Positions 35,688 to 55,178 of a stretch of 64,000 nt of DNA are shown piece by piece. Below the pieces are notes generated by a model. It saw only the letters and a program-made list of their open reading frames with translations. It ran no database searches and was not told where the DNA came from. Position 1 is the first letter of the stretch. The number at the start of each line of letters is the position of its first letter. The translations under genes and the position numbers were made by a program. The DNA comes from Rivularia sp. PCC 7116. Lineage in GTDB: Bacteria > Cyanobacteriota > Cyanobacteriia > Cyanobacteriales > Nostocaceae. The stretch spans positions 1,612,001-1,676,000 of the forward strand of contig NC_019678.1 of the NCBI RefSeq assembly GCF_000316665.1. The letters run 5' to 3'.

Positions 35688-38600
35688 ATGCAAAATTCTT
35701 TTACCGGAACAACAGGAAATGACAATATCACAGGAACTTCTGGTGATGATTTAATTGAGGCTCTAGGGGGTAATGATAGCCTTAGCGGGCTGGCTGGTAA
35801 TGACAGTTTAGATGGGGGAGATGGAGACGATTTCCTCAATCCCGGTACTGGAGTAGACACTGTAGATGGTGGAGCGGGTAATGATGGATTATTACTCGAT
35901 TTATCTACTCAAGCTACCGACTTAACAATTAACTTCACCAACGCTACAGATGGAACAGTATCTAACGGTACGAGTTTCCAAAACATTGAAAGCTTTAACT
36001 TAGAAACAGGTAGTGGTGACGATACTGTAACTACTGACTCTGATACAGGTAACGCTTTAGTACGTACTGGCAGTGGAAACGACAATATTCAAACCGGAGC
36101 CGGAGAAGACAGAGTTGAAGGTGGCGACGGCGATGATACGATTCGCGGTGGAGCCGGAGATGATAGCAATAGGAGATTAAACTCATACCCCGGAGATACT
36201 GAGTTCAGTGGTTTGTTTGGTGGTAACGGTAACGATGTAATCTTTGGCGAAGCTGGTAACGATCACCTTTTCGGTGAAGCTGGTAATGACAGTTTAGATG
36301 GGGGAGATGGAGACGATTTCCTCAATCCCGGTACTGGAGTAGACACTGTAGATGGTGGAGTGGGTAATGATGGATTATTGCTTGATTTATCTGCTCAAGC
36401 CACCGACTTAACAATTAACTTCACCAACGCTACAGATGGAACAGTATCTAACGGTACGAGTTTCCAAAACATTGAAAGCTTTAACCTAGAAACAGGTAGT
36501 GGTGACGATACTGTAACTACTGACTCTGATACAGGTAACGCTTTAGTACGTACTGGCAGCGGAAACGACAATATTCAAACCGGAGCCGGAGAAGACAGAG
36601 TTGAAGGTGGCGACGGCGATGATACGATTCGCGGTGGAGCCGGAGATGATAGCAATAGGAGATTAAACTCATACCCCGGAGATACTGAGTTCAGTGGTTT
36701 GTTTGGTGGTAACGGTAACGATGTAATCTTTGGCGAAGCTGGTAACGATCACCTTTTCGGTGAAGCTGGTAATGACAGTTTAGATGGGGGAGATGGAGAC
36801 GATTTTCTCAATCCCGGTACTGGAGTAGACACTGTAGATGGTGGAGCGGGTAATGATGGATTATTGCTCAATTTATCTGCTCAAGCCACCGACTTAACAA
36901 TTAACTTCACCAACGCTACAGATGGAACAGTTTCCAACGGTACGAATTTCCAAAACATTGAAAACTTTAACTTAGAAACAGGTAGTGGTGACGATACTGT
37001 AACTACTGACTCTGATACAGGTAACGCTTTAGTACGTACTGGCAGTGGAAACGATAATATTCAAACCGGAGCCGGAAACGACAAAGTTGAAGGTGGCGAC
37101 GGCGATGATACGATTCGCGGTGGAGCCGGAGATGATAGCAATAGCGTATTCAGCTCATACCCTGGAACTTTTGGGCGTGGTGGTTTGTTTGGCGGTAACG
37201 GTAACGATGTAATCTTTGGCGAAGCTGGTAATGATGGGCTTTACGGTGAAGCTGGTAATGACAGTTTAGATGGGGGAGATGGAGATGATTTCCTCAATCC
37301 CGGTACTGGAGTAGACACTGTAGATGGTGGAGCGGGTAATGATGGATTATTGCTCGATTTATCTGCAAGCGCCACCGATATTTCAATTAACTTCACCAAC
37401 GCTACAGATGGAACAGTTTCTAACGGTACAAGTTTCCAAAACATCGAAAGCTTTAACTTCTCTACAGGTAGTGGTGACGATACTGTAACTACTGACTCTG
37501 ACACAGGTAGCGCTTTAGTGCGTACTGGCAGTGGAAACGATAATATTCAAACCGGAGCCGCAAACGACAAAGTTGAAGGTGGCGACGGCGATGATACGAT
37601 TCGCGGTGGAGCCGGAGATGATAGCAATGGCATATTCAGCTCATACCCTGGTGCTTTTGGGCGTGGTGGTTTGTTTGGCGGTAACGGTAACGATGTAATC
37701 TTTGGCGAAGCTGGTAATGACGATCTTTTTGGTGAAGCTGGTAATGACACTTTAAGTGGAGTTGATGATAATAGCCTCACTCCAGGAATTGGAGAAAGAG
37801 ACGAGTTAAGTGGAGGTACAGGAAACGACCTGTTTATTCTGGGTGACAGTATCAACACCTATTACGACGATTTGGATACTTCCACTAATGGAGACAATGA
37901 TTATGCTACGATTACAGATTTTAATCCCAGCGAAGATAAAGCTCAGTTACAGGGAACAGCTAGTAATTACCGTTTAGAAGTTGATGGTGCTGATACTAAT
38001 CTCTACATTCAAAAACCAGGCAACGAACCCGATGAACTGATTGCGGTATTCGAGAATGTCACGAATTTAGACCTTGAATCGGATGCTTTTATATTTGTTG
38101 AGCAACAAAATCAAGCCCCCGTACTAGCTACCAACGACGGCTTAACGGTAGACGAAGACGCAATTGCTAACATTACCTCAACTCAACTACAGGTAACAGA
38201 TGCAGATAACACCGCTGCGGAAATCACTTATGTCATCACTGACGTAACCGACAACGGTGACTTGTTGCTTGACGGAACAACTTTAGCTCTCAACGACACC
38301 TTTTCCCAGGCTGACATTGACAACAACCTTCTAACCTACGACCATGACGGTAGCGAAACCACTTCCGACAGCTTTAACTTCGTAGTTGCTGACGGTGCGG
38401 GTGGTAACATAAGTTCTTCAATGTTTGATATTACGGTTAATCCCGTTAATGATGCGCCTGTCGCTGTAAATGACACAGCAACAACTGATGAAGACAACAG
38501 CGTAACTATCAGTGTCCTAGCTAACGACACCGACGCTGAAAACAATAACCTTTCAATTACTAACGTTAGTAATGCAACAGGTACCGTTACAATTAACGGC

Positions 38601-40199
38601 AGCAACATTGTTTATAATCCCGACGGACAATTTGAATCTTTGAATGCGGGTGAAACTGCAACCGATACCTTTACTTATAGTATCGACGACGGTGAAGGTG
38701 GTACCGATACAGCTACAGTAAATGTAACTATCAACGGACTTGAGCAAGCCAATCTACCACTTGTTACAGTTAACAATACAGCCGTTAGCAATCCAGTTAT
38801 ATCTTACGGTGGTCCAAGTCAAGATGTTGTAGGTACTGCCCAGGTATCCCCCAGCAACCAACTAAACCTCACTGGAAACCGTTGGCAAAGAGTTGAAATT
38901 AACTCAAATATCACCGCTAATACCGTTCTAAGCTTTGAATTCGAGGGTAATGGTAAAAGTGAAGTTCAAGGTATTGGCTTCGACAACGACAATAGTATTA
39001 GCCGCAGTAATGATGGTGGGCAATTCTTCCAAGTTGATGGTAGTCAAAACTGGGGTATAACAAACCTCACTCAGTTCATTGTTAACCAGTCAGGTAATAA
39101 AGATACCTATGAAATTCCAGTAGGCGAATTTTTCACTGGCAATTTTGACTTTTTGACCTTTGGTAACGATGATGACCAAAATAACCCGGATGCTGAAGCT
39201 ACATTTAGCAATATCGAGCTATTTGAAGATAATTCACTAACTGTTTCCATCAATCAAGTTACCGAAAACAAAGAAGTTGAATCCTATGGTGGTGCTTCTC
39301 AAGACGTTAACGTAGTTCAAACTATTAACAATACAGAATTACAGTTAGCTGGTAATGGCTGGAAACGGTTAGATATTATGGGGTATGAAATAAATGCGAA
39401 TACTCGCTTGCGGTTTGATTTTGCCTCTAACGGTGAAGCTGAAATTCAAGGTATTGGCTTCGACAACGACAATAGTATTAGCCGCATTAATGATGCTGGG
39501 CAGTTCTTCCAAGTTGATGGTAGCCAAGAATGGGGTATAACAAACCTCAGTCAGTTCATTGTTAACCAGTCAGGTAATAAAGATACCTATGAAATTCCAG
39601 TAGGCGAATTTTTCACTGGTAATTTTGACTTTTTGACCTTTGCTAACGATGATGACCAAACGAACCCGGATGCTGAAGCTGCATTTAGTAATATCGAGCT
39701 ATTTGAAGATAATTCGGATTTACTAACTGTTTCCATCGATGAAGTTACCCAAAACAAAGAAGTTAAATCCTACGGTGGTGCTTCTCAAGACGTTAACGTA
39801 GTTCAAACTATTAACAATACAGAATTACAGTTAGCTGGTAATGGCTGGAAGCGCTTAGATATCACAGGGTATGAAATAAATGCGAATACTCGCTTGCAGT
39901 TTGATTTTGCCTCTAACGGTGAAGCTGAAATTCAAGGTATTGGCTTCGACAACGACAATAGTATTAGCCGCAGTAATGATGCTGGGCAATTCTTCCAAGT
40001 TGATGGTAGTCAAAACTGGGGTATTGAGATAGATCAAAGTCAATATATTCTTGGTACTACAGACGGATTTACTCAGTATGATATTCCTGTTGGTGATTTC
40101 TTCACTGGTGAATTCGACTTCCTAACCATTGGTAACGATCATGACGTAGCGAATCCAACTGCTGTTGGGCAATTCCAAAACATTACACTTATCGGATAA
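35688..40199 (+). CDS. RTX-like Ca2+-binding secreted protein with cadherin-like and C-terminal repeat domains
   Basis: A 1503-residue, acidic, secreted-type protein. Residues 1-40 hold RTX nonapeptides (GGxGxDxLx). Residues 40-687 are four near-identical 162-residue units, each with RTX motifs (GGDGDDTIRGGAGDD, FGGNGNDVIFGEAGND) and a shared beta-rich core (INFTNATDGTVSNGTSFQNI). After one more RTX part come two cadherin/VCBS-like modules (about 809-920 and 923-1018; APVAVNDTATTDEDNSVTIS). The last 460 residues are three repeats of a YGGASQDV...GIGFDNDNSISR domain, which I know from secreted polysaccharide-active proteins. No N-terminal signal peptide, so type I secretion is inferred; no ABC exporter genes are nearby. 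A clean terminator follows. Likely an adhesin, sheath or extracellular matrix protein. Confidence 0.85.
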   Translation: MQNSFTGTTGNDNITGTSGDDLIEALGGNDSLSGLAGNDSLDGGDGDDFLNPGTGVDTVDGGAGNDGLLLDLSTQATDLTINFTNATDGTVSNGTSFQNIESFNLETGSGDDTVTTDSDTGNALVRTGSGNDNIQTGAGEDRVEGGDGDDTIRGGAGDDSNRRLNSYPGDTEFSGLFGGNGNDVIFGEAGNDHLFGEAGNDSLDGGDGDDFLNPGTGVDTVDGGVGNDGLLLDLSAQATDLTINFTNATDGTVSNGTSFQNIESFNLETGSGDDTVTTDSDTGNALVRTGSGNDNIQTGAGEDRVEGGDGDDTIRGGAGDDSNRRLNSYPGDTEFSGLFGGNGNDVIFGEAGNDHLFGEAGNDSLDGGDGDDFLNPGTGVDTVDGGAGNDGLLLNLSAQATDLTINFTNATDGTVSNGTNFQNIENFNLETGSGDDTVTTDSDTGNALVRTGSGNDNIQTGAGNDKVEGGDGDDTIRGGAGDDSNSVFSSYPGTFGRGGLFGGNGNDVIFGEAGNDGLYGEAGNDSLDGGDGDDFLNPGTGVDTVDGGAGNDGLLLDLSASATDISINFTNATDGTVSNGTSFQNIESFNFSTGSGDDTVTTDSDTGSALVRTGSGNDNIQTGAANDKVEGGDGDDTIRGGAGDDSNGIFSSYPGAFGRGGLFGGNGNDVIFGEAGNDDLFGEAGNDTLSGVDDNSLTPGIGERDELSGGTGNDLFILGDSINTYYDDLDTSTNGDNDYATITDFNPSEDKAQLQGTASNYRLEVDGADTNLYIQKPGNEPDELIAVFENVTNLDLESDAFIFVEQQNQAPVLATNDGLTVDEDAIANITSTQLQVTDADNTAAEITYVITDVTDNGDLLLDGTTLALNDTFSQADIDNNLLTYDHDGSETTSDSFNFVVADGAGGNISSSMFDITVNPVNDAPVAVNDTATTDEDNSVTISVLANDTDAENNNLSITNVSNATGTVTINGSNIVYNPDGQFESLNAGETATDTFTYSIDDGEGGTDTATVNVTINGLEQANLPLVTVNNTAVSNPVISYGGPSQDVVGTAQVSPSNQLNLTGNRWQRVEINSNITANTVLSFEFEGNGKSEVQGIGFDNDNSISRSNDGGQFFQVDGSQNWGITNLTQFIVNQSGNKDTYEIPVGEFFTGNFDFLTFGNDDDQNNPDAEATFSNIELFEDNSLTVSINQVTENKEVESYGGASQDVNVVQTINNTELQLAGNGWKRLDIMGYEINANTRLRFDFASNGEAEIQGIGFDNDNSISRINDAGQFFQVDGSQEWGITNLSQFIVNQSGNKDTYEIPVGEFFTGNFDFLTFANDDDQTNPDAEAAFSNIELFEDNSDLLTVSIDEVTQNKEVKSYGGASQDVNVVQTINNTELQLAGNGWKRLDITGYEINANTRLQFDFASNGEAEIQGIGFDNDNSISRSNDAGQFFQVDGSQNWGIEIDQSQYILGTTDGFTQYDIPVGDFFTGEFDFLTIGNDHDVANPTAVGQFQNITLIG
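35805..37748 (+). repeat. Four tandem 486-bp repeats in the RTX-like gene
   Basis: Units begin at 35805, 36291, 36777 and 37263, each 486 bp (162 codons). Units 1 and 2 differ at only a few bases, unit 3 is close, unit 4 has more changes. The first part of each starts AGTTTAGATGGGGGAGATGG. Confidence 0.92.
38805..40196 (+). repeat. Three C-terminal domain repeats of 480-486 bp
   Basis: Units start at 38805, 39285 and 39771 (TACGGTGGT or TATGGTGGT). Units 2 and 3 are near-identical over most of their length at the DNA level; unit 1 is diverged in its first half but shares its second half. Confidence 0.88.
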
Positions 40200-41511: not shown

Positions 41512-43875
41512 ATGCTCACAGACACGATTCTCCGTAATCGCTACAAAATTCTTAAAGAACTGGGACGCGGTGGATTTAGTGTCACCTATATTGCGGTAGA
41601 TATGGATTTACCAGGAAATCCTAAATGTGTTGTTAAACAACTAAAAACTCGGCATTCTAATAACACAATTTTGCAGATTGCCAAGAAGTTGTTTGATAGA
41701 GAAGCACAAGTACTCTATCGTTTGGGTAAGGGACACAAACAAATTCCCGAAATGTTCGCGCATTTTGAAGAAAATGATGAATTTTATTTAGTTCAAGAAT
41801 TTGTCGATGGACATGATTTGACTAAGGAAATTAAACCACGCACGCGATTGAGTGAAGAAAAGGTAACTAAGCTTTTACAGGAAATATTAGAAGTACTAAG
41901 TTTTGTCCACGAAAACGAGGTGATTCACCGCGATATCAAGTTGCGGAATATCATGCGCCGTCGTGAAGATGGTAAAATCGTTTTGATCGATTTTGGTGCG
42001 GTCAAAGAAATCAAAGGTTTGGCAAAAAACGAACAAGGTGATGTCAATTCTACTTTGATTATCGGTACCCCCGGCTATATGCCAGACGAGCAGGCTAATG
42101 GTAAGCCGAGGTTATGTAGCGATGTTTATGCAGTAGGAATGCTGGGTATTCAAGCTTTAACTGGTATACCTCCCCGCGAATTACCATTTAATCCTAATAA
42201 TGGTGAATTAATCTGGCGCGATTCGGCAAAAGTCAGCGATAGACTAGCCGAAGTTTTGACGGGTATGGTAAGACACCACTTTAGTCAGCGTTATCGAACC
42301 GCAGCAGAAGCTTTAATAGCGCTCAAATCGCCAGTCATTCTACCACCAAATACTTCTTTTGCTTACCAAGCACCAGTAACTTTACCGTCAACTATTCGTC
42401 AATCCCGCCCTAGGGTACTGCAAACTTTTGGATTGGCTGGTTTAATCGGAACTGCCTTTGGTTTAGGGGCTTTTGGATGGAGCTTGTTTCAATCTAGTTC
42501 AATTGGCAACGAATCAGTTCGGACTACAGAAATTCCACCGACTATAAATAAGCTGAATCCTTCAACAAAACCCGAAAGTTTGAAGCAAAACCCGTTAAGA
42601 TTTTCACCTTCTACAGCTAACAGAGAAAGTTACAACAACAAACCAATTTTTATACCTTTCATACCGTTTTTTAACGAAAACAAATCTCAACGGGATCGAG
42701 AAGTTTCTCCGTCAAAAATGAAGGTGGATAAGGCTAAACCGGCATTGGATTATAAGCCCAAAAACGTCCATAAGAATATTCATAAAAAAAATAAACCTGC
42801 TCCGAAAACTTCTATAGTTCGGGAAGAGAAAGTTGAAAAGAAAGAGCCTCAATCTACATTTTTAATTCCGCAGTCTAAAAAGAAATCGGAATCTTTACCT
42901 TCTATTAAAATACCTAAATCCGAAGAGAAAAAAATTGACGATTCTCCTAAACCTTCAATACCAAAACCAGTAATAGAAGAACCCGAAACATCTTTACCAG
43001 TAGAATCTAATTCAGTTGATAAAGCAAAAGATAAGAATAAAGATAATAACACGGATAATTTAGAACCTGAAACAACTTTACCCAAGAAATCTGATGCCGT
43101 TGATGAAGTAAAAGATAACCCTGAAAAATCAGAACAACCACCCAAAGAGCAGGAAAATCCTTCAGAAGAACAACCAAAACAAATTCCTCCTTCACCTAAC
43201 ACACCTGCAATCGAAAGCGAATCATCATCGCCTCAGCCAACTCCATCACCCACACAAACTCCCGCACAAACTGAGGATAGCGACAACGTTGTAGTTCCAA
43301 CAAATCCACCCTCAGAATCTTTAATTTTAGAAAACAACAAGTTCATTTATACAGAAGAATCGACACCTATTGTACCGATCCCAACCCCCGAAGTTGAAGC
43401 CAAACCAACTTTATCACCCCAACCAACTCCAACACCTGAAGCTGCAACTCAATCAGTTGCCACACCACAACCAACTCCAACACCCGAAGCTGAGACTAAA
43501 TCAGTTGCCACACCAGAGCCAACTGCAATATCTGAAGCTGAGACTAAATCAGTTGCCACACCAGAGCCAACCCCAACCACAACACCTGAGGAAAATCAAC
43601 CAACTCCACAAACTTCTACAAATCCTATGCCTGAAGCTGAACTTCTAATTATTCCGGAAGTTTATCCTTCACCCACACCCAAAACCAACGTGAAAGTAAC
43701 TCCCCAAATTTCTACTTCTCCATTAGAAAACGAGACGCAAGCAATTCCCCAAGCTTCTGCTTCTCCCTTACCTCAAAATCAGCCAAAGGCAAAACCAACA
43801 CCAACACCAACTCCAACACCAACTCCATCAACCACCGAGGAAAAAGGCTTATCCCTCAAAGGTTTCGCCATTTAA
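41512..43875 (+). CDS. Ser/Thr protein kinase with membrane segment and Pro-rich tail
   Basis: A 787-residue Hanks-type kinase. The kinase domain (about 11-270) has the Gly loop GRGGFSVTY (18-26), Lys42 in VVKQLK, catalytic loop HRDIKLRN (139-146) with Leu where most relatives have Pro, and DFG with Asp160. One hydrophobic segment (304-326) follows. The remaining 460 residues are disordered, rich in Lys, Glu, Pro, Ser and Thr, with repeats of the TPEAETKSVATPEPTP type (about 640-695), ending in a short KGLSLKGFAI. The tail probably extends into the periplasm or wall if the segment spans the membrane. Targets are unknown. The next genes (M48 peptidase, COP23) lie on the same strand but 300 bp or more away. 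Confidence 0.85.
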   Translation: MLTDTILRNRYKILKELGRGGFSVTYIAVDMDLPGNPKCVVKQLKTRHSNNTILQIAKKLFDREAQVLYRLGKGHKQIPEMFAHFEENDEFYLVQEFVDGHDLTKEIKPRTRLSEEKVTKLLQEILEVLSFVHENEVIHRDIKLRNIMRRREDGKIVLIDFGAVKEIKGLAKNEQGDVNSTLIIGTPGYMPDEQANGKPRLCSDVYAVGMLGIQALTGIPPRELPFNPNNGELIWRDSAKVSDRLAEVLTGMVRHHFSQRYRTAAEALIALKSPVILPPNTSFAYQAPVTLPSTIRQSRPRVLQTFGLAGLIGTAFGLGAFGWSLFQSSSIGNESVRTTEIPPTINKLNPSTKPESLKQNPLRFSPSTANRESYNNKPIFIPFIPFFNENKSQRDREVSPSKMKVDKAKPALDYKPKNVHKNIHKKNKPAPKTSIVREEKVEKKEPQSTFLIPQSKKKSESLPSIKIPKSEEKKIDDSPKPSIPKPVIEEPETSLPVESNSVDKAKDKNKDNNTDNLEPETTLPKKSDAVDEVKDNPEKSEQPPKEQENPSEEQPKQIPPSPNTPAIESESSSPQPTPSPTQTPAQTEDSDNVVVPTNPPSESLILENNKFIYTEESTPIVPIPTPEVEAKPTLSPQPTPTPEAATQSVATPQPTPTPEAETKSVATPEPTAISEAETKSVATPEPTPTTTPEENQPTPQTSTNPMPEAELLIIPEVYPSPTPKTNVKVTPQISTSPLENETQAIPQASASPLPQNQPKAKPTPTPTPTPTPSTTEEKGLSLKGFAI

Positions 43876-45996: not shown

Positions 45997-46821
45997 ATGT
46001 CATCTAGACCTTTGAAGCTTTTATTTCTCGGCGGTTTGGCAGTATCCGTATTATTCGGTAATGCACCTGCAATGGCACAATACGACTCCTCAGACGATGC
46101 CGTAGTAGTACCCACAACTGGAAGCGGTAGAACCACTACAACCCCAAGAGGGACTTCAACCACAACCAGAACCCGTACATCCACACCAACGGGAACATCA
46201 ACCACAACTTCTACAAGCAGTTCTTCCCAAAGAGTTGACACCGCAACTCGGTTTAGCTGTCAAATGGATACCAACGGCTATACCGTTATGTACTCTCCTC
46301 AAAGTCAACCAAATCAATTATTTGCATGGGCAACTCCCCAAGCATTAGGTGGCGGTTGGGATTCCCAAAGACGTTGCAACACCATAGCCCAGCGTTTAGA
46401 AAGCTATCGTCCAGACGGTTTGTTAGAACTTCGCACCTCAACTTTAAATGGGTATAACGTATTATGCGTAACCAGCGAAGCCGATCCCTCTTGTCGTTTA
46501 GTACTAACAGTTCCTCCTGGTAGAGACGCTTTCCAAGTACGTAACGACGTTTTTCAAAACTTAGTTTCAGCAGACAGCGGACAGTCAACCATCGGCGTTA
46601 ACACTTACAGAGGAGCCGGATTAGAAGACACCATTAATCTAGGTAGAACATTACTTGGTGGCAAGCGTGCGGCAGTATCTAGAGATGCCATTCAGCTAAA
46701 ACCATTCTTAGATAAACAAGATGGTGGAAACGGCAAACTATTGAGAAACGTAAAGAAAACTACTCCTCAATCTCGTCCTACTCAATCCGGTAATAGATTA
46801 AATCCCGATCTTTTCCGCTAA
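45997..46821 (+). CDS. COP23-domain protein
   Basis: A 274-residue exported protein. Signal peptide residues 1-27 (LLFLGGLAVSVLFGNAPAMA) with an AMA-Q cleavage site; a Thr/Ser-rich linker (35-80); then the COP23-type domain (about 85-200) with FSCQMDTNGYTVMYS, WDSQRRCNTIAQRL, VLCVTSEADPSCRLVLTV and four conserved Cys. A basic disordered tail follows. COP23 was described as a circadian-regulated protein in a unicellular cyanobacterium; its function remains unknown. AGGAGGATG lies just before the start, a strong ribosome site. Located in the periplasm or outside the cell. Confidence 0.82.
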   Translation: MSSRPLKLLFLGGLAVSVLFGNAPAMAQYDSSDDAVVVPTTGSGRTTTTPRGTSTTTRTRTSTPTGTSTTTSTSSSSQRVDTATRFSCQMDTNGYTVMYSPQSQPNQLFAWATPQALGGGWDSQRRCNTIAQRLESYRPDGLLELRTSTLNGYNVLCVTSEADPSCRLVLTVPPGRDAFQVRNDVFQNLVSADSGQSTIGVNTYRGAGLEDTINLGRTLLGGKRAAVSRDAIQLKPFLDKQDGGNGKLLRNVKKTTPQSRPTQSGNRLNPDLFR

Positions 46822-46907
46822 TTGATGTTTTCAGGCAACAGGGAATAGAAGATTGTCTTGACAATTATGGTTAGTAGTTTATAAAAACTCAATTTAGATC
46901 CCCCCAA

Positions 46908-46934
46908 CCCCCCTTAAAATAAAGGGGGGCTTTT
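46908..46934 (+). terminator. Terminator-like hairpin after the COP23 gene
   Basis: CCCCCCTT (46908-46915) pairs with AAGGGGGG (46922-46929), followed by CTTTT. The sequence also resembles a dispersed C/G-rich repeat of cyanobacterial spacers. Confidence 0.65.
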
Positions 46935-47048
46935 ATATATCAAACCAGTACTCATTTTTTAATACAATTATCTTTGGCATTGCAATAATCATAGATAAAT
47001 AGCAATGCCCAATGCCTAATTCCCCACGCCCAATTACCAAGTATAAAA

Positions 47049-47549
47049 ATGTTTGGCAGACCTCAACCCATAAAACCAGAACCCGGACAAGAATCAGTAT
47101 GGGATTACCCCCGTCCCGCTGTTTTACAAGATACCGATAAACATATTCAAATTGTTTTCAACGGTGAAACTATTGCAGACACCAAACGAGCCAAGCGCGT
47201 TATCGAAACCAGTCATCCTCCCAGCTACTATATTCCTCCCGAAGACATCAAAATGGAATATTTAATTCAAACACCGCATTCAAGTTTTTGTGAATGGAAA
47301 GGAATAGCTAATTATTACACCATCAAAGTCGGCGATAAAGAAGCACAGAATGCAGCTTGGTTTTACACTAATCCCACAGAAAAATTTGTACCTCTAACAA
47401 ACTATGTAACTTTTTACGCTCACCCAATGGATGCTTGTTACGTGGATGGAGAAAAAGCCGAACCACAACCAGGAAATTTTTATGGTGGTTGGATAACTAA
47501 AGATGTAGTTGGACCATTTAAAGGAATTCCCGGTAGTTGGGGATGGTGA
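47049..47549 (+). CDS. DUF427-domain protein
   Basis: A 166-residue soluble protein of the DUF427 family. Signature blocks: SVWDYPRPAVLQDTDKHIQI, IADTKRAKRVIETSHPPSYY, IPPEDIKMEYL, SSFCEWKGIANYYTI and VTFYAHPMDACYVDG. The family folds as a small beta-barrel; its biochemical role is unsettled to my knowledge. The gene seems monocistronic and is followed at once by a GTTAGGA heptamer array. Confidence 0.85.
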   Translation: MFGRPQPIKPEPGQESVWDYPRPAVLQDTDKHIQIVFNGETIADTKRAKRVIETSHPPSYYIPPEDIKMEYLIQTPHSSFCEWKGIANYYTIKVGDKEAQNAAWFYTNPTEKFVPLTNYVTFYAHPMDACYVDGEKAEPQPGNFYGGWITKDVVGPFKGIPGSWGW

Positions 47550-47552
47550 AGA

Positions 47553-47609
47553 GAGTTAGGAGTTAGGAGTTAGGAGTTAAGAATTAGGAGTTAGGAGTTG
47601 GAAGTTAAA
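47553..47609. repeat. GTTAGGA heptamer array
   Basis: About eight units with a few changes (GTTAAGA, ATTAGGA, GTTGGAA), just after the stop of the DUF427 gene. Confidence 0.85.
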
Positions 47610-48022
47610 TGCTCAAACATGATTTGAATAGTTCTAACTCGTTTCTATATATAGTGTCTTAGGAACATATAAAAGTAACCAAATGAAGCCAATAATTCTG
47701 CAAATGCTTCATCAAATTTCACTATAATTAGCATCATAAAAATTAAATTGAGATTTAAATTAGTATAAGTTTTAGTAAATTATGACTAGAACTAACGTTA
47801 AAATATACATATGTTTTTGACAATATTAATTATTAATTGTGTTTTGCTATACAAATCATTTGTACAAAGCAAAAATTTTGAATATATTAACCTTGACTGA
47901 AGGTAGTTATAAACAGCCTGATGGAACTAATACGCTCTCACTTCAGACAAGAATAAAAGTTGGGACAAAATTATTAATTGTTACAAGTGAATTTACTAAG
48001 TATTTAGGAGGGTGTTCTACTT
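47610..48022. other. AT-rich leader of the helicase operon
   Basis: No gene supported; an open frame across 47839-48141 looks non-coding. Poly-A/T tracts dominate. The operon promoter should lie here. Confidence 0.4.
48006..48012 (+). promoter_or_regulatory. Strong ribosome binding site deciding a TTG start
   Basis: AGGAGGG ends ten bases before TTG at 48023-48025. No ATG or GTG is nearby in frame, so the helicase probably starts at TTG. Confidence 0.75.
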
Positions 48023-51000
48023 TTGAGCGAGCTATTACTATGGCAACTTGCTTACCATCTATCAGGTTCTACATTATTAGGAATAACAGAGCAAGAGCCT
48101 TTAGGAACTCTACCAATTCCAATACGAACTGCTGTTCTTAAAACTGTAAAGCAGTTCAACCCAGACTCTATTGATTTAAGATTAAACAAAAAATCTCCTC
48201 TTGATTTTGGTGAAGGTGAATATGAGTGGGTAGAAAGTTGGAATTACAAAAACTCTTCACAACTCGACCCTAATTTAGAAAAACTATTACACAAACTTCC
48301 ACAGCGTTATCCTACCTATCAAAAAGTAGCTCTTAAATTATTAAGACAAGCAGTAGAAAATGGTAAATCGCATCTTGTTTTGGCTGATTTTCAACCGACT
48401 ATTGCAAGCTTTGCTTTAGCAATTCTAGATTTAATCGCAGTAGTCGAGCAAGTTTCTCAACTGTATGGGTTATCTATAGCGCTACCAAAAGTAGAAATTT
48501 ATTTGGTGGGTTCAGTTGATATTGGTGTCACAGAATTACTAAAGAATTATCGCGGTGTTGATTTAAATGAAACGTCTAATTTTATCGATTCTCCTCAAAC
48601 ATCTGTGAAATTAGTCAGAAATGAACAGCTACCCGAAGATGTTGATTTTATATCGGTTGCTGAGTCTTTAAATAATAATCCACACAAGAATAGTCACAGC
48701 TTTAATGATTTAGAAAGACTAGGGCTAGAGTTTGTTGACTGTGTTAGAGATGTACCACCTTTACAAGCACATCCGGTATCTTTTGAACGACCAACCCTAG
48801 ACTACTTTGCTCGTCGCTATTTTCCACTACCAGAACTTAAACTAGAACAAGTAGAACTTATTCAAAAAGCTTTAGACAACCAGTCAATATTAGGGCTTTT
48901 ACCAACGGGTTTTGGTAAATCATTGATATTTCAACTTTATGCTTTATTAATTCCTCGGACGACATTAGTTATCAGTCCCCTAAAAGCGCTTATCCGCGAC
49001 CAGGTAAACAACTTAAAGCGGACTGGTTTAAACTGTGTGGAATCTATAATTTCTGGAGAGACAGCAAAGCAAAGGAAAACGAAACTAGAAGGTCTTAAGT
49101 TTGCTCGTTATCGAATGTTGTACGTTTCACCGGAACGTTTACAGATAGGTGAATTTTACGATGAGTTAAAGGCGATAATGCATCAGAATCCCATTGGGGG
49201 ATTGGTAATTGATGAAGCTCATTGTGTCTCTGAATGGGGACATGATTTCAGACCAGCTTATTTACAAATTGGACGTTTACAACAAACTTTAGAAACTGCT
49301 TCCGGAAGTAAAGTACCAATTATCGCTTTAACCGCAACAGCTTCCGAACCAGTTCGCAAAGATATTCTGCGAATTCTAGGACTTTCACAAGAAAGTATAG
49401 TCCAATCTCCTAACAGCGACAGACCTAATTTCAGTCTTTCGGTACATCGTGTTAGCCAACCTAAAGATAAAATGATTCTTCTAAAAGGTTTACTTCAAAA
49501 AATTGTTCCTAACGTGCTTAATATACCTTTTGAAGAATTAATCCCAGAAAATAACGATCCAAAGTATGCAGGAATTATTTTCAGTATTTATGCCGATCCT
49601 CACGGAAAATCAACGCTGCACGAAGGAGTACATTACATTGCAGACAATGTTGCTAAACAGGTAGTTCCAGAAGCAAGTTTGGTTAGGGTATATGCTAGTA
49701 GACAACCAGAATATTGCCCAAGTTGTAATTCCTCATTTTTCATAAACAAAAGTAAGAATGCTTTTTGCTTATCCTGTGGTGATTCTTTTGGGCTTAGGCA
49801 AGGTAAAAAAGCGAAAAACTGGGATAAATTTCTTCAAGAATGTCAAGATGCTTTTCAAAGCGATAAATTCCCTTTGTTAGTTGCGACAAACGGATATGGA
49901 ATGGGAATTGATAAGCGTAATATTCGCTTTATTATTCACCATGGTTTTTCAAGTAGCCTTGAAGCATATTACCAAGAAGCTGGGAGAGCTGGTCGCGATG
50001 GTCAGCATTCTCATATAGCTTTAATGTATATTCCTCCAGATAAAAAATGTAAACAAGAATATCTAGATAAAAAGCTTGAGCCTCCATGTGTAGCTATAAA
50101 CTACCGTCGATACGATTGTCCTTATTATGAAGACTATTTGTGTGACTATGGTCATCAGGCAATCTTTATTCGTAAAAGTTACGAAGGCATAGAAAAAGAT
50201 ATTAATTCTGTCTTCACAGTGTATGAAAAACTCAAATCTGGAGAAACTGTAAAATTTACTAGTAATTCAGATAAAAAAGAAGAAATTTATCTTTATAGAT
50301 TACAGCAATTAGGCATAGTTAAACAATATTATAAGCATTATAACAAAGGATTTAGAGGTGAATATAAAGTAATATTTGACGATAATTGGGATTGGCAACA
50401 GCTAGCTAATTATCTCAAACAATTTTTAGTGGACACTGGTTTTGACGATAAAAAAGCTAAAGATGAAATAGAGAAAATACACAAAAAAGTTTCATATTCA
50501 TCCCAAAATATTAAAATTATACTCTTAAAAGAAGCATTAAAGAGTCTTTTAGAGCGTGTTTATGAAAGAATATTTAGAATGCGTTATCAAATGCTTAGCA
50601 ATCAACTTGATTATGCAGAGAGTGATAAAGAAGAAGTATGTCGTCGCGTATTCCTTAGAGGTATATTTGATTTAGACAAGCATTTAGCAACTGAAAATTA
50701 CCGATGTGGTTTTTGTGATTCGTGTGTTCCTAATCTCAATTTTGAAAACAGTAAAGCTGCTGTTTTAATGGAAGAAGCTCAAGTTGAGGATCTTATAGAA
50801 AAACTACCTAATGTATTAGAACAATTTGATAGAGATAATCTGTTTGAAATTTTAAACCTTACCATAGAAAAAGGTGCTATCGCTGGACTATTTGCTCGCG
50901 TTGCTAACCGTCTTGAACGCGACCCGAGCAATTTACCAGCACTTTATTTAGCAGGTGCATTAGGTAGACTGCGGAAAGGGAAAGAAATCATAGCTTTTGA

Positions 51001-51322
51001 ATATTTAAAATTTGGTTTTAAAGAAGGTATAAAACAAGGTTTATCTCCCGATAATCTGCTTATCTTTTATCAAGAAGCAGTACTTTTAAACCCCGAAGAA
51101 GCATTTAGCTGGTTAACAGAAGTTGGTGGATATTGGGATAATCAAGCAGGATTGCAATTTTTAATTGAAGAAGCTAATCAAAGGTTTGGAATTGATTCGA
51201 CACAATACCGTATTCTAATTTTACTTTTGCAAGTTAGAAAGTTGAATAAAGTCAGCGATGATTCTATTAACTTAAAACCAGGAATCAAAAAATTAAAGCA
51301 AGGATTTGAACGATTAAACTAA
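48023..51322 (+). CDS. Large RecQ-family DNA helicase with inserted zinc ribbon
   Basis: A 1099-residue superfamily 2 helicase. Residues 1-265 are an unrecognised domain not found in normal RecQ. Then the RecQ core: Walker A LLPTGFGKS (about 292-300), ISPLKALIRDQV, DEAH with HCVSEWGHDFRP (about 396-410), ALTATAS (about 434), GYGMGIDKR (about 622) and motif VI QEAGRAGRDG (about 652-661). In the second helicase lobe a zinc ribbon is inserted (CPSC and CLSC, about 566-585), with unusual sequence around it. A Cys-rich block (YRCGFCDSC, about 893) resembles the RecQ zinc-binding domain. A 170-residue helical C-terminus ends it. RecQ helicases unwind forks and recombination intermediates; similar long helicases occur in phage-defence loci. 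Starts at TTG; 19 bp before the coiled-coil gene. Confidence 0.85.
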   Translation: MSELLLWQLAYHLSGSTLLGITEQEPLGTLPIPIRTAVLKTVKQFNPDSIDLRLNKKSPLDFGEGEYEWVESWNYKNSSQLDPNLEKLLHKLPQRYPTYQKVALKLLRQAVENGKSHLVLADFQPTIASFALAILDLIAVVEQVSQLYGLSIALPKVEIYLVGSVDIGVTELLKNYRGVDLNETSNFIDSPQTSVKLVRNEQLPEDVDFISVAESLNNNPHKNSHSFNDLERLGLEFVDCVRDVPPLQAHPVSFERPTLDYFARRYFPLPELKLEQVELIQKALDNQSILGLLPTGFGKSLIFQLYALLIPRTTLVISPLKALIRDQVNNLKRTGLNCVESIISGETAKQRKTKLEGLKFARYRMLYVSPERLQIGEFYDELKAIMHQNPIGGLVIDEAHCVSEWGHDFRPAYLQIGRLQQTLETASGSKVPIIALTATASEPVRKDILRILGLSQESIVQSPNSDRPNFSLSVHRVSQPKDKMILLKGLLQKIVPNVLNIPFEELIPENNDPKYAGIIFSIYADPHGKSTLHEGVHYIADNVAKQVVPEASLVRVYASRQPEYCPSCNSSFFINKSKNAFCLSCGDSFGLRQGKKAKNWDKFLQECQDAFQSDKFPLLVATNGYGMGIDKRNIRFIIHHGFSSSLEAYYQEAGRAGRDGQHSHIALMYIPPDKKCKQEYLDKKLEPPCVAINYRRYDCPYYEDYLCDYGHQAIFIRKSYEGIEKDINSVFTVYEKLKSGETVKFTSNSDKKEEIYLYRLQQLGIVKQYYKHYNKGFRGEYKVIFDDNWDWQQLANYLKQFLVDTGFDDKKAKDEIEKIHKKVSYSSQNIKIILLKEALKSLLERVYERIFRMRYQMLSNQLDYAESDKEEVCRRVFLRGIFDLDKHLATENYRCGFCDSCVPNLNFENSKAAVLMEEAQVEDLIEKLPNVLEQFDRDNLFEILNLTIEKGAIAGLFARVANRLERDPSNLPALYLAGALGRLRKGKEIIAFEYLKFGFKEGIKQGLSPDNLLIFYQEAVLLNPEEAFSWLTEVGGYWDNQAGLQFLIEEANQRFGIDSTQYRILILLLQVRKLNKVSDDSINLKPGIKKLKQGFERLN

Positions 51323-51341
51323 TATAACTAAGGTAAATATT

Positions 51342-52487
51342 ATGGCAGATGATTTAAATAGTTTAGAGCAACTAGAAAGAGAAATAGCTGATTACCGCAG
51401 TAAGTTTCAGCAATCTTCTAAAGTTATTGATGATTTAGCGCAAATTCAATTTGATTTTGAGGACGTTACAGATGAGTATCAAGAACTAAACAACGAACAT
51501 CAAGTGCTGACGGAATATATCAAGAAAACACAAACTGAATTTGCGGCTTTAAAAGTTGAATCAAGAAATAATATTGACGAAATAGTTCGGACACAGGAAA
51601 ATTTTAATCGAGCTTTCACTACATTTGAAAATGCAGCTATAGAAAATATCAATCAAAAACTAGAAATATCAAATCAGCGTCTTATAGAATTAGAAAATCA
51701 TACAAAACAACGATTAGAAGCAAGTTTCAATGGAGCGAAACAAGCTTTAAACTCACTGCAAACTCAATCAACAGATGCTGTAAATCAAATAACTCAAATA
51801 CAAGAAGATTTCAACCAACGCTTTGCAAATCTTGAAAAAGTAAACTTAAAGCAGATACAAGAAACTCAACAAAGCTTGAATAACCATTTCAAAACTCTCG
51901 AAACAAATACTGAATCAAAATGGGAGCAATTTCAGCAGCAGACTAATTATCAAAGAAATATATTTAGGGAAAATAGTGAGCAGCGCTTCACAAAATTAAC
52001 AGAAAACATTGATACTCGGCTAGAAGAAAGATTAGATGAGACGACACAAGTTTTAAACTCACTGCAAACTCAATCAACAGATGCTGTAAATCAAATAACC
52101 CGAACGCAAGAAGATTTCAACCAGCGTTTTGAAAACCTCGAAAAGAATAACTTAAAGCAGATACAACAAAATCAAGAAAGTTTGAATCAGCGTTTAACAA
52201 CTTTTGAAAATGCAACTGAGTCAAAATTAAACCAGTACCAGCAACAGATTTCTTCCGATATAACTAAATTAGAACAGAACAATCAAAATCTGAATAAAAA
52301 GCTTGAACTACAACTTACAGAATTAAATAAAAGTACAAAAAGAACACAATCGCTCGCTATTATTGCTATTGTGCTAGGTATCATTGCTGCAACTTTTGCA
52401 GTACTTCCATTCTTCTCTAAAACGACAAATGAAGTAGAATCTCGTAGCTTTCAAACACCACGAGTTTCTAAACATAATATGCTTTAG
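51342..52487 (+). CDS. Coiled-coil protein with C-terminal membrane anchor, partner of the helicase
   Basis: A 381-residue protein, almost wholly heptad-rich helix (about 5-330), Gln/Asn/Glu-rich, with one hydrophobic segment near the end (about 336-358, SLAIIAIVLGIIAATFAVLP) and a short polar tail. Two internal repeats share LNSLQTQSTDAVNQIT, EDFNQRF and NLKQIQ (51748 and 52051 in DNA), 303 bp apart. The gene is 19 bp after the helicase stop with an AAGG ribosome site, so it is co-transcribed. The predicted layout is a cytosolic rod tethered to the membrane. No known domain is recognised. Its tight pairing with a RecQ-like helicase suggests a joint function, possibly membrane tethering of DNA or a defence response; this is inference. 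Confidence 0.75.
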   Translation: MADDLNSLEQLEREIADYRSKFQQSSKVIDDLAQIQFDFEDVTDEYQELNNEHQVLTEYIKKTQTEFAALKVESRNNIDEIVRTQENFNRAFTTFENAAIENINQKLEISNQRLIELENHTKQRLEASFNGAKQALNSLQTQSTDAVNQITQIQEDFNQRFANLEKVNLKQIQETQQSLNNHFKTLETNTESKWEQFQQQTNYQRNIFRENSEQRFTKLTENIDTRLEERLDETTQVLNSLQTQSTDAVNQITRTQEDFNQRFENLEKNNLKQIQQNQESLNQRLTTFENATESKLNQYQQQISSDITKLEQNNQNLNKKLELQLTELNKSTKRTQSLAIIAIVLGIIAATFAVLPFFSKTTNEVESRSFQTPRVSKHNML

Positions 52488-52546
52488 TATCACCAGAGTG
52501 ATGAGTTAGGAGTTATAAATACTGCTGACTGTTCACTGTTCACTGT

Positions 52547-52816
52547 TTATTTTCTCTTGCCTCTAACCTGAACTTTCCTATCAGTCTTCTGCTTCTTCAC
52601 CCATTTCAAAAACTTCTGCATTTGCGGTTCATCTTTAAGCAAATCGGCAGTATTTAACTCTTTCGCTAAACGATTATTATCGTACAGCGTATGAACTTGT
52701 TTATGGCAAGCAGAGCAAATATTAATTCTCGGACCATGTTTACCATTTTTATGTTTGGGAATCAGGTGATGTACCGTCAGCTTTTCCAAATCCCGCTGGC
52801 ATAATTCACAAATCAT
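52547..52816 (-). CDS. HNH nuclease-type protein
   Basis: An 89-residue protein with the HNH fold signature: Cys3 and Cys6 (CELC), the LTVHHLIPK block with His16 and His17, Cys34 and Cys37 (CSAC), and His42 (KQVH). The C-terminal half is helical and very basic (KKQKTDRKVQVRGKRK). Such stand-alone HNH proteins nick or cut DNA, or bind it. It is convergent with the helicase operon, 59 bp from the coiled-coil stop, and could be part of the same locus though on the other strand. A heptamer array lies before its start. Confidence 0.8.
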   Translation of the reverse strand: MICELCQRDLEKLTVHHLIPKHKNGKHGPRINICSACHKQVHTLYDNNRLAKELNTADLLKDEPQMQKFLKWVKKQKTDRKVQVRGKRK

Positions 52817-52821
52817 AATAT

Positions 52822-52885
52822 TAAAGGTTGAAGGTCAAAGGTTAAAGGTTAAAGGTTAAAAGTTAAAGGTTAAAGTTCAAAGTAT
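52822..52885. repeat. AAAGGTT heptamer array
   Basis: About eight degenerate units (TTAAAGG, AAAGGTC, TTAAAAG) between the HNH gene and the lipoprotein gene. Confidence 0.8.
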
Positions 52886-52918
52886 AATAGCTCTTAACAA
52901 CTAACAAATAACAACTAA

Positions 52919-53908
52919 CTATTCAAATATCAAATAAGTTCCCTCCAACCCTTCTAAAATTGTCCTTGTATTAGCTGTCATCATCTTTTGATAAGTATCT
53001 GCTCCGCTTCCCGGTACGCCTAAACTTTCTGTAAAAAGCTGCCTTTGGGATATATTTACTCGTGCTTCTTTAGCTACGGACTTGATTAATTCAGGGCTAA
53101 TTGTAGGCTGTGCGAAGATTGTGGGTACTTGGGTTTTTGCTAATGTCGTAGCTAATAGTTTAACTTTGGTATCTGATGTTTTTTCTGTAGGACTAATAAA
53201 TCTCAAGGTTCCTGCTAATTTCAAACCATAAGCACGAACGTAGTAAGCCATCTCATCATGAGTTGTGACTAAAGTGCGTTTCTTGGGAGGAATACTTTCA
53301 ATTCTTGTTTTTATCCAATTGTCTAATTCTAAAAGTTGTTTCTTTATTTTCTTAGTATTATTTTGATAGAGTTTGGCATTTTCTGGTATTTCTCTAACTA
53401 AATTAATACTAATTACATCTATCATTTTGATGGCATTTTTGGCATTGTGCCATACGTAAGGGTCGGCGACTTTTTTCCCATTTCTAGTTACCATCAGTGG
53501 TGAAGGTACGGCTATTTTTGCTACGGGAAGCTTTGGTGCTTTATTTTTACTTGAAAGGATAAATTTTTCTAATCTAGGTTCTAAATTGTAACCGTTAAAA
53601 ATAATTAATTTAGCTTGATTTATTGCTTCTTGGTCTGCTGGTGTTGGCTGATAGACTTTGGGATTTATTGATGGTGAAGTTAAACACTTAAGACTAATTG
53701 TTTTTCCCGCAATTTGTTTTGTTAAGTCACATAAAACACTTGTTGTTGCAACTACTAAAGGTAAATCTTTCTTAATTGTAGTAGTAGTAACAGTTGTTGT
53801 ATAAGAAGCAGTTTTATTCGCATCTGAATTATTACAGCCATAAATTGATACAGTAGCTAAAACAAAGATAATACGCAAAACTTTGTTTAAAGGTAGTTTT
53901 TCTAACAT
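52919..53908 (-). CDS. ZnuA/MntC-like metal-binding lipoprotein with altered ligands
   Basis: A 329-residue cluster-9 ABC-type solute-binding protein. Signal peptide with lipobox-like SIYGC (lipidated Cys25), a Thr-rich linker, then the fold: LVVATTSVLCDLTKQIAG, LIIFNGYNLEP, TLVTTHDEMAYYVRAYGL, VPTIFAQPTISPELI and ESLGVPGSGADTYQKM. Zn/Mn binders normally have four ligands (His, His, His or Glu, Asp or Glu). Here the first stands as Lys84 (NPKVYQPTP instead of xPHxYEPTP), the second as Tyr151 (DPYVWHNAKN instead of DPHVW; His154 is close by), the third is His217 and the fourth Glu294. So two ligands are lost. No permease or ATPase genes are adjacent. Divergent from a CooC-like ATPase across a Fur/Zur-type box. 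Confidence 0.85.
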   Translation of the reverse strand: MLEKLPLNKVLRIIFVLATVSIYGCNNSDANKTASYTTTVTTTTIKKDLPLVVATTSVLCDLTKQIAGKTISLKCLTSPSINPKVYQPTPADQEAINQAKLIIFNGYNLEPRLEKFILSSKNKAPKLPVAKIAVPSPLMVTRNGKKVADPYVWHNAKNAIKMIDVISINLVREIPENAKLYQNNTKKIKKQLLELDNWIKTRIESIPPKKRTLVTTHDEMAYYVRAYGLKLAGTLRFISPTEKTSDTKVKLLATTLAKTQVPTIFAQPTISPELIKSVAKEARVNISQRQLFTESLGVPGSGADTYQKMMTANTRTILEGLEGTYLIFE

Positions 53909-53965
53909 ATAGTTATAATTAGCATCTGTTTGATGGAGGTTGAATACTACTTGTTTTTGTGAGTT

Positions 53966-53984
53966 AGAATGATTATCATTGTCA
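53966..53984. promoter_or_regulatory. Fur/Zur-type operator between divergent metal genes
   Basis: The minus strand reads GACAATGATAATCATTCTA; 16 of 19 positions agree with the classic Fur box (GATAATGATAATCATTATC). The core AATGATAATCATT is an almost perfect palindrome. It lies 58 bp before the lipoprotein start and 37 bp before the ATPase start, well placed to control both. Zur of cyanobacteria binds similar sites, so the regulator could be Fur or Zur. Confidence 0.75.
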
Positions 53985-54020
53985 CTAGAACAAATATTTC
54001 TTCAGCATTAAGGTATCGCA

Positions 54021-54971
54021 ATGACTATAAATACAGTTAATGCATCTTCTAATCAAGAACTTGTCATAGCTTTAATGGGTAAAGGTGGGACGGGTAAGAC
54101 TTTTACTTCATTAGGTTTAATCCAGAGTTTGAGAAAGTTGGATAAAGCAATGATTGTAGCGGATGCAGATACTAATAGGTCGCTTTCGCGCTATCTTGCT
54201 GGTCATTATTTGGGATATGGGGAAGAAGAGTTAAAGCAACTTCCTTTGATGACTCAAGCAGAGCAGGATTTTTACGAGTTTCAGCAATTGGATTCCGAGC
54301 GAACCTACCGCGAATTTTACGGTACTCCATTCGATCGCGTTAAGAATTTTTCAGTTGAACCACCAGACTCTTTTACTCAGAAGTACATCAAATCTCTTGA
54401 CGAAAAACTTGCATTGATGTCCGTAGGAACAAGTGCTTTGCGTAAGGAAGAGCTTTATTCTAATCGGTGTTCTCACGCTACACTAAATCCGTTAAAAGCC
54501 TGGTTAGCTTTATCTACAAATGGAATTATACTAGCAGACTGTGGTGGTGGGGAAGATGTTGGTAGATTTGGTTTACCCATTGGTGCCCATGTGGTAGTTG
54601 TGGTAGTGGAAGCAACTCCTGATTCTATTGCGATTTCTGAAGATATCCGTGCTATCGATGAAGAATTAGGAATTCCCGTAGTTTATGTTTTAAACAAATG
54701 TCTCAATCAGTTTCCGGAAGTTGAAGCTTTTGAAGCGGAGCATCAAGATACTATTGTAGGTAAAATTCCTTTCATACCTACAATTTACGGAAAAAATCCT
54801 TTAGAAGTATTCGGCGAGATTGAACCTATATTTAACCCAATAATTGAGAAAATCCTCTCTCAGAAATTGAGTTCACCCCAGCAAAGATGGGAAAGAGTAT
54901 TAAGATGGCAAAAAAGACTACAGCAACAAATGGAAACTAAGAAAAGTCAATCGTTTAGTTTTGTTTCTTAA
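54021..54971 (+). CDS. CooC/MinD-like SIMIBI ATPase
   Basis: A 316-residue P-loop ATPase of the SIMIBI class with a deviant Walker A GKGGTGKT (20-27, signature Lys21), VADADTNRSLS for the switch region (45-55), ILADCGGGEDVGRFG (about 175-189) and VVEATPDSIAISEDI. VYVLNKCLN is the NKxD-like base contact. Members of the CooC/HypB/MinD group load nickel into enzymes, position proteins or partition DNA. The N- and C-terminal parts are longer than in CooC. Divergent from the metal-binding lipoprotein and sharing its Fur/Zur box, so a role in metal loading or storage is inferred; direct evidence for a metal site (a CxC motif) is lacking. Confidence 0.7.
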   Translation: MTINTVNASSNQELVIALMGKGGTGKTFTSLGLIQSLRKLDKAMIVADADTNRSLSRYLAGHYLGYGEEELKQLPLMTQAEQDFYEFQQLDSERTYREFYGTPFDRVKNFSVEPPDSFTQKYIKSLDEKLALMSVGTSALRKEELYSNRCSHATLNPLKAWLALSTNGIILADCGGGEDVGRFGLPIGAHVVVVVVEATPDSIAISEDIRAIDEELGIPVVYVLNKCLNQFPEVEAFEAEHQDTIVGKIPFIPTIYGKNPLEVFGEIEPIFNPIIEKILSQKLSSPQQRWERVLRWQKRLQQQMETKKSQSFSFVS

Positions 54972-55123: not shown

Positions 55124-55178
55124 CAGTGAATAACTACCAATTACCAATTACCAATTATCCATTACCAATTACCCATTC

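Follow-up and report, generated by a model that had tools for sequence, protein, structure and literature searches.

The Zorya system consists of a membrane motor, ZorAB (ZorA with its MotA/ExbB/TolQ domain, and ZorB), and a helicase-nuclease, ZorD. In RqlHI/PsyrTA, an accessory operon with a RecQ-type helicase, toxicity maps to the PRTase domain of RqlH, which is restrained by the DprA-like RqlI, according to PMC4670107, and a system of DprA plus PRTase is described in PMC9122126 as protecting against T7 and lambda. PMC11090510 and PMC13316683 describe, respectively, CoCoNuT type III-B, in which a helicase fused to a Vsr-like nuclease is combined with coiled coils, and type III Druantia (DruH-DruE), a two-component helicase defence that is presented there as free of a canonical nuclease domain. 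Here we analyse a pair of genes from a 64,000-nucleotide (nt) stretch of Rivularia sp. PCC 7116 (contig NC_019678.1, positions 1,612,001 to 1,676,000), referred to as the window. The first gene (48023..51322) encodes a RecQ-family helicase of 1099 amino acids (aa) with a TTG start, and the second (51342..52487), separated from it by 19 nt, encodes a coiled-coil protein of 381 aa with a single predicted C-terminal membrane anchor, hereafter the rod; both genes, and so the features within them given below, are on the + strand. The two genes are paired in homologous loci, and the results suggest that they form a defence module built on a helicase, in which the constant partner is an unusual one.

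By the features tested, the pair is neither RqlHI/PsyrTA nor DpdF nor Zorya. It resembles RqlHI/PsyrTA in having a RecQ-type helicase in an accessory operon, and distant relatives from Raoultella, Escherichia coli and Deinococcota are linked to PRTase and DprA, but in the window helicase there is no PRTase match, the domains at both ends are different, and the gene constantly paired with it encodes a coiled-coil rod. In its best stretch, the 689-position PsyrT profile matches the window helicase at positions 21-240, and no PRTase domain was found in a Pfam scan of this helicase, in the Thermomicrobium and Thermus helicases or in the N-terminal parts of the L014 and L015 homologues. DpdF is also a RecQ-like helicase and the PADLOC DpdF profiles were the top-scoring labels, but the window helicase reached 157.4 bits against a cut-off of 550 for NF041063, with only the helicase core aligned; the homologues from Thermus, Raoultella and Thermomicrobium reached 137.2, 138.4 and 166.3 bits with the same model. 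The DpdF profile PDLC02868 fits the Raoultella relative across most of its helicase part (374.7 bits), so that this branch is not new to PADLOC. The PADLOC labels given to the helicases are DpdF or PsyrT, and there is none for the pair itself; membership of Dpd or PsyrTA by PADLOC label was considered and rejected on NCBIfam cut-offs and domain content.

Likeness to DISARM is limited to the neighbours of the Thermus pair, which include DrmD-like and DrmMI-like genes, whereas by score the helicase and the rod are not DISARM subunits; even the SNF2 helicase beside the Thermus pair falls under the thresholds as DrmD (344.9 vs. 610 bits) and, despite 540 bits with the PADLOC DpdE-like profile, under the NCBIfam cut-off (201.7 vs. 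500). The initial annotation had drawn a loose analogy to Zorya, and the parallel is one of working principle only, a membrane-anchored coiled coil with a helicase(-nuclease): the window rod has no MotA/ExbB Pfam match and carries one C-terminal anchor instead of a motor, and ZorA profiles matched it weakly, in the coil part (best E 5.4e-4). CoCoNuT type III-B differs in its SF1 UPF1-like helicase and McrB-type GTPase, compared to RecQ here, and type III Druantia is set apart by DruE, a DUF1998 helicase, and by the large size of DruH (residue numbers >1100 in PMC13316683). In the literature searched by titles and abstract starts, a coverage that lacks bioRxiv and most subscription papers, no paper was recognised as describing a RecQ helicase paired with a membrane-bound coiled coil, and a description elsewhere is possible.

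The pairing of the two genes was conserved well beyond the window. A same-strand coiled-coil gene followed the helicase gene in all 24 distinct homologous loci with a readable next gene (25 rows, in which L016 and L101 are one contig), thus bearing out the co-occurrence expected from the initial annotation. In 23 of these loci the rod gene began no more than 102 nt after the stop of the helicase gene or overlapped with it, the other one being L009, where a transposase comes between and the helicase is shortened. As the set contains near-duplicates (L012/L041; L009/L019/L021/L100; L015/L016/L097; L093/L094; L098/L099), it represents about a dozen separate lineages; L017, L020 and L023, in which the contig stops before the next gene, as well as L080 and the Thermus plasmids of hits H2-H7, stand outside the count. 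For 23 of the 24 partners, no more than 13 of 200 shuffled sequences scored as high in the heptad test; for L015 the number was 53. A C-terminal membrane helix, called by hydropathy only, was present in 16 partners, absent in five and unreadable in three, and so the membrane tether proposed at the outset stands in many branches but fails in five of the 21 partners readable to their end. When ordinary RecQ loci of the window's phylum were subjected to a similar test, a coiled-coil neighbour was detected in none of 27 readable loci. This control is modest: 30 loci were taken from RecQ matches in 59 genomes, three of them without downstream sequence and the other 27 with 219-1074 nt of it, and an open reading frame (ORF) of at least 90 aa was found near the stop in eight of the 27, with a best heptad score matched by 26 of 200 shuffles.

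Helicase and rod genes also diverge together. Distances between the helicases were correlated with those between the rods (Mantel r 0.72, with none of 5000 permutations as high, for 18 of the 24 loci), and the correlation persisted when close kin were removed (r 0.54, 0/5000 permutations, 14 loci), although strong divergence of the rods makes the alignment behind the test rough. Members of the family seem liable to disruption by transposons. Apart from L009, the Thermus plasmids pTF24b and pTF28b (outside the pairing count) have their helicase gene interrupted by transposon-like genes and an IS256-like gene in the rod gene or next to it, and the rod of pTF24b was found in two pieces. In the Thermus plasmid stretches L008 9239-16804 and L104 5239-12805, insertion-sequence-like genes were observed within the helicase, with the rod split or flanked; the rod of L008 is in two pieces, and the layout of L104 is taken from its annotation.

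The reading of the first gene as RecQ-like but not housekeeping was upheld by protein models. The RecQ core of the window helicase scored 266 bits with TIGR00614 (cut-off 219.8) and is thus placed in the RecQ family, and the RecQ core fold is present, whereas the score with the housekeeping RecQ equivalog TIGR01389 was 274.2 bits, well under its cut-off of 640.2; two further RecQ genes (561 and 314 bits) were detected in the source genome. The unusual start also proved sound: TTG 48023 is preceded by AGGAGG (48006-48011, an 11-nt spacer) and by an in-frame TAG (48005) with no alternative start codon between, and it is the point from which homologues align. The canonical helicase motifs are the Walker A motif LPTGFGKS (residues 293-300, 48899..48922), conserved in homologue alignments, the DEAH box (residues 397-400, 49211..49222), invariant in the 10 rows of alignment A5, which holds the window helicase and nine homologues, and motif VI, QEAGRAGRDG (residues 651-660, 49973..50002).

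Three sets of cysteines follow the DEAH box, all invariant in A5. The zinc ribbon inserted in lobe 2 (C565/C568/C582/C585, 49715..49777), predicted from the beginning, is retained across that alignment, but it is absent from the aligned Salinibacter and Raoultella relatives. A second quartet (C676/C689/C699/C707, 50048..50143), a signature of the family that is also invariant in the 12 rows of alignment A4, could bind metal in addition to the RecQ zinc site, with zinc or an iron-sulfur cluster as possible ligands. The third is the RecQ-type zinc-binding motif (C873/C895/C898/C901, 50639..50725), for which PF16124 stayed under the gathering score both in the window helicase (E 0.02) and in the Thermus homologue (E 4e-5). 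The C-terminal domain (residues 922-1099, 50786..51319) is all-helical by the secondary structure of the AF2 model, in agreement with the earlier prediction.

At the other end of the helicase, the extra N-terminal part of 265 residues that had been noted as unknown is real, but not unrelated to everything: residues 1-263 (48023..48811) form a family-specific alpha/beta domain, which in one relative is weakly Rossmann/methyltransferase-like. In many relatives this domain holds an inserted Vsr-like PD-(D/E)XK nuclease, a nuclease-like fold being seen for the inserted domain and a DUF559 match in Raoultella, whereas the window helicase has a short linker at the same site (residues 74-91, 48242..48295). 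The nuclease-less window helicase is nested in the tree among nuclease-bearing ones, the Vsr-like nuclease having been lost in its branch. Nuclease-less helicases also occur in other branches, in Thermomicrobium and Deinococcota; for L013 the nuclease status is not readable because the sequence is cut near the contig start. In this tree, the join between Salinibacter and Raoultella is a long-branch pair that may be false, and the placement of Thermomicrobium is unsure (90/98). Genome G453 carries two family members, one nuclease-bearing and split by an ORF that looks transposase-like by eye (L092), and one nuclease-less in a DprA/PRTase-type locus (L093).

The rod that was originally described, on ORFs, as a coiled coil with a single C-terminal anchor 19 bp behind the helicase was found again by heptad score and hydropathy. 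Its heptad score was matched by two of 200 shuffles, with 0.6% Pro plus Gly in the body, and its sole strongly hydrophobic segment is a predicted membrane helix at residues 337-355 (52350..52406; mean hydropathy 2.75). The rod is lengthened by two tandem repeats of 102 residues (51714..52325), as an offset of 102 gives identity at 72 of 279 positions and the gene has 228-bp repeats that are 79% identical. Among partners that are complete, rod length varies from 162 to 391 aa, and the other rods are 14-27% identical to that of the window. The top PADLOC match of the window rod was the candidate PDC-M40C (20.7 bits, 6.4e-5, residues 209-358), but other coiled coils score similarly.

The distribution of the pair is sporadic and spread over bacteria and archaea. 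Plasmid-borne homologues were found in Thermomicrobium roseum (38% over 98%), Thermus, Deinococcus wulumuqiensis and Salinibacter ruber (52% of the query, tblastn) and, more distantly, in Raoultella (48%), and further ones in records labelled Cyanobacteria, Methanothrix, Competibacteraceae, Acidobacteria, Calidithermus, Thermus, Clostridia and Sulfuricurvum. In the tree, L017, which is the acidobacterial contig, falls so near Thermus that its assignment may be wrong. An initial genome scan with the single helicase protein produced zero loci, and an alignment-based scan with two peptide patterns, not exhaustive, produced 11. With a hidden Markov model (HMM) of the family, matches were obtained in 1/386 genomes of the window's phylum (its own genome), 7/111 in the phylum of the Calidithermus genome G410, 3/149 in the class of the Methanothrix genome G411 and 5/40 in the order of the Competibacteraceae genome G412. 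Besides its own genome, the helicase was unmatched in 292 genomes of the window's phylum (E 1e-100) and in 41 relatives including seven congeners (E 1e-60), and its N-terminal part was matched in none of the other genomes among the 386 searched. A single scan of viral contigs revealed no relative of the helicase, and none of 25 matches in phage records reached 80% query coverage.

Comparison with congeners provided a view of how the pair has come and gone. The stretch that carries it (47592..52520) is absent from congener G296 (L025), where the equivalents of window positions 47591 and 52521 are only 25 nt apart. At its left edge there is a GAGTTAG heptamer array (47553..47607), and similar heptamer sequence stands at the right edge. 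In congener G297 (L026, G297:C1 near 5774967), the two sides of a deletion scar correspond to window 47848-47926 and 52434-52474, the latter being the 3' end of the rod gene, and they overlap briefly where they meet. Therefore, the pair was once present in G297 and was then deleted, which is direct evidence for loss inside the genus. In L027-L029, a DUF427 gene is found near a ZnuA-like gene and the pair is absent.

Defence genes adjoin the pair in four lineages. In the chromosome of E. coli ET846, near yecA, a DprA gene, a HAD-PRTase-DUF559-RecQ fusion and the rod stand in a row with type I restriction on one side and MzaABCDE on the other; a 1485-base query comprising the end of the fusion gene and the rod gene matched 7 of 5426 complete E. 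coli genomes, six of them over at least 80%. The Raoultella neighbours are a ShosA-like DprA (219 bits) and a type I R subunit. In D. wulumuqiensis, a DruE-like helicase with PRTase and a weak HAD match is encoded upstream and a HAD-DprA protein (ShosA, 245.7 bits) downstream, and L093 shows a similar DruE-like helicase, with a ShosA-like protein of 256.6 bits downstream. In Thermus the order is a ParB-like gene directly upstream, the pair, Eco57I- or DrmMI-type methylase genes and DrmD/DpdE-type SNF2 helicases, and in Salinibacter a type I R subunit, a methylase and a GIY-YIG nuclease are neighbours. Homologues are thus found in plasmids and defence loci and are not confined to core, non-defence locations, the outcome that would have spoken against the initial annotation. 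A DprA-like neighbour is present in the distant relatives L010, L012, L041 and L093. The Competibacteraceae copies are apparently inserted in a housekeeping cluster, as read by eye. Defence genes of these kinds were not found beside the Thermomicrobium pair or among the tested neighbours of the window pair, where no Dpd label rose above chance and no DprA domain was detected in the seven proteins at 45997-54971. Neighbour scans exclude L013-L017, L021-L023, L094-L097 and L100, and for L092, L098 and L099 they are limited to one or two ORFs per locus. Two genes upstream of the pair in L098 (2275-4758), an 827-aa protein matched the profile of reverse-transcriptase-associated PolA (84.8 bits).

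Taken as a whole, we regard it as an even call that the pair is a mobile two-gene DNA-defence module in which the rod tethers a RecQ helicase to the membrane. The rod would sit in the cytoplasmic membrane by its C-terminal helix, as we infer from hydropathy, and extend into the cell; its N-terminal part would bind the helicase and keep it near the membrane where foreign DNA enters, and the tethered helicase would unwind the incoming DNA. Both the binding and the substrate are suggested by operon pairing and co-divergence. In many relatives, the Vsr-like nuclease in the N-terminal domain of the helicase would cut the opened strands, whereas the nuclease-less cyanobacterial copy would unwind or block the DNA or pass it to host nucleases; the expected outcome is anti-phage or anti-plasmid action. 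A more specific version, which we put forward tentatively and at somewhat under even likelihood, is that of an undescribed and widely transferred bacterial and archaeal module in which a RecQ helicase-nuclease, held by a tail-anchored rod, is an interchangeable DNA-processing arm that may act alone or plugged into DISARM-like restriction or DprA/PRTase suicide systems, and in which unwinding alone protects in cyanobacteria, where the nuclease was lost. If so, a physically tethered helicase-nuclease would join the known ways of meeting foreign DNA at its entry point, several unrelated defence systems would have a constant two-gene core in common, and the long RecQ-like proteins labelled RecQ or DEAD/DEAH helicase in records, and DpdF by PADLOC, could be sorted out. 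As there is a relative in E. coli, the idea is testable in laboratory strains.

The links with DprA/PRTase genes make a suicide mechanism the main rival. The pair would then be the DNA sensor of a toxin-antitoxin-like system of the RqlHI/PsyrTA/ShosTA type, with PRTase as the toxin and DprA as the antitoxin, and the lone window pair would be a stripped or re-purposed remnant. Its joining to HAD-PRTase and DprA proteins in Deinococcota and Enterobacteriaceae would fit such a role, as would the toxicity of RqlH, its restraint by RqlI and the phage protection by DprA plus PRTase (PMC4670107, PMC9122126), but the PRTase domain is missing from the window, Thermomicrobium and Thermus helicases and from the N-terminal parts of L014 and L015, and the DprA domain from the tested window neighbours, and we consider this explanation unlikely. 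Somewhat more doubtful is a service to the plasmid or mobile element itself, in DNA processing, partition, exclusion of rivals or DNA uptake at the membrane. Several homologues are plasmid-borne, with the ParB-like gene directly upstream in Thermus and a replication initiator and PRTRC genes within ~10 kb in D. wulumuqiensis, and several hosts of the pair are naturally transformable; however, the window copy is on a contig of >6 Mb with no plasmid genes among the tested neighbours, and the E. coli ET846 copy is chromosomal, amid restriction and Mza genes.

It seems improbable that the loss of nuclease and partners has left the window copy as a functionless, decaying relic. The missing nuclease, the deletion scar in congener G297, the single genome of 386 in the phylum and the copies broken by insertion sequences elsewhere are all compatible with decay, but both window ORFs are full length, the helicase still has its motifs and its three cysteine sets intact, and nuclease-less members recur in Thermomicrobium and Deinococcota. 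Least probable is a membrane-bound variant of housekeeping RecQ repair, since beyond the shared RecQ core fold it has to accommodate two other RecQ genes in the same genome, the failure to match the helicase in seven congeners and the sporadic occurrence in the groups searched.

The convergent HNH gene (52547-52816) had been suggested as a supplier of nuclease to the defence module. Its product is HlpB-like, under the cut-off (97 of 130 bits), and matches to the gene were found beside the zinc-transporter gene, which is ZnuA-like, in congeners L025, L026 and L030, with the pair not seen in the stretch examined, and in two other genera (L031, L033). Because it keeps company with the ZnuA-like gene in relatives without the pair, it was rejected as a third component and is not part of the module. 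Near the ZnuA-like gene of the window there is a ParA/MinD-like ATPase gene (54021-54971, CbiA match), with no adjacent ParB partner seen. Heptamer tandem arrays stand between genes at 47553-47607, 52821-52883 and 55135-55177. Further upstream, the window encodes a repeat-rich protein of 1503 aa (35688-40199) with many GGxGxD-like repeats, RTX-like by eye, and a putative serine/threonine protein kinase (41512-43875), also recognised by eye, with a long Pro/Thr/Ser-rich tail.

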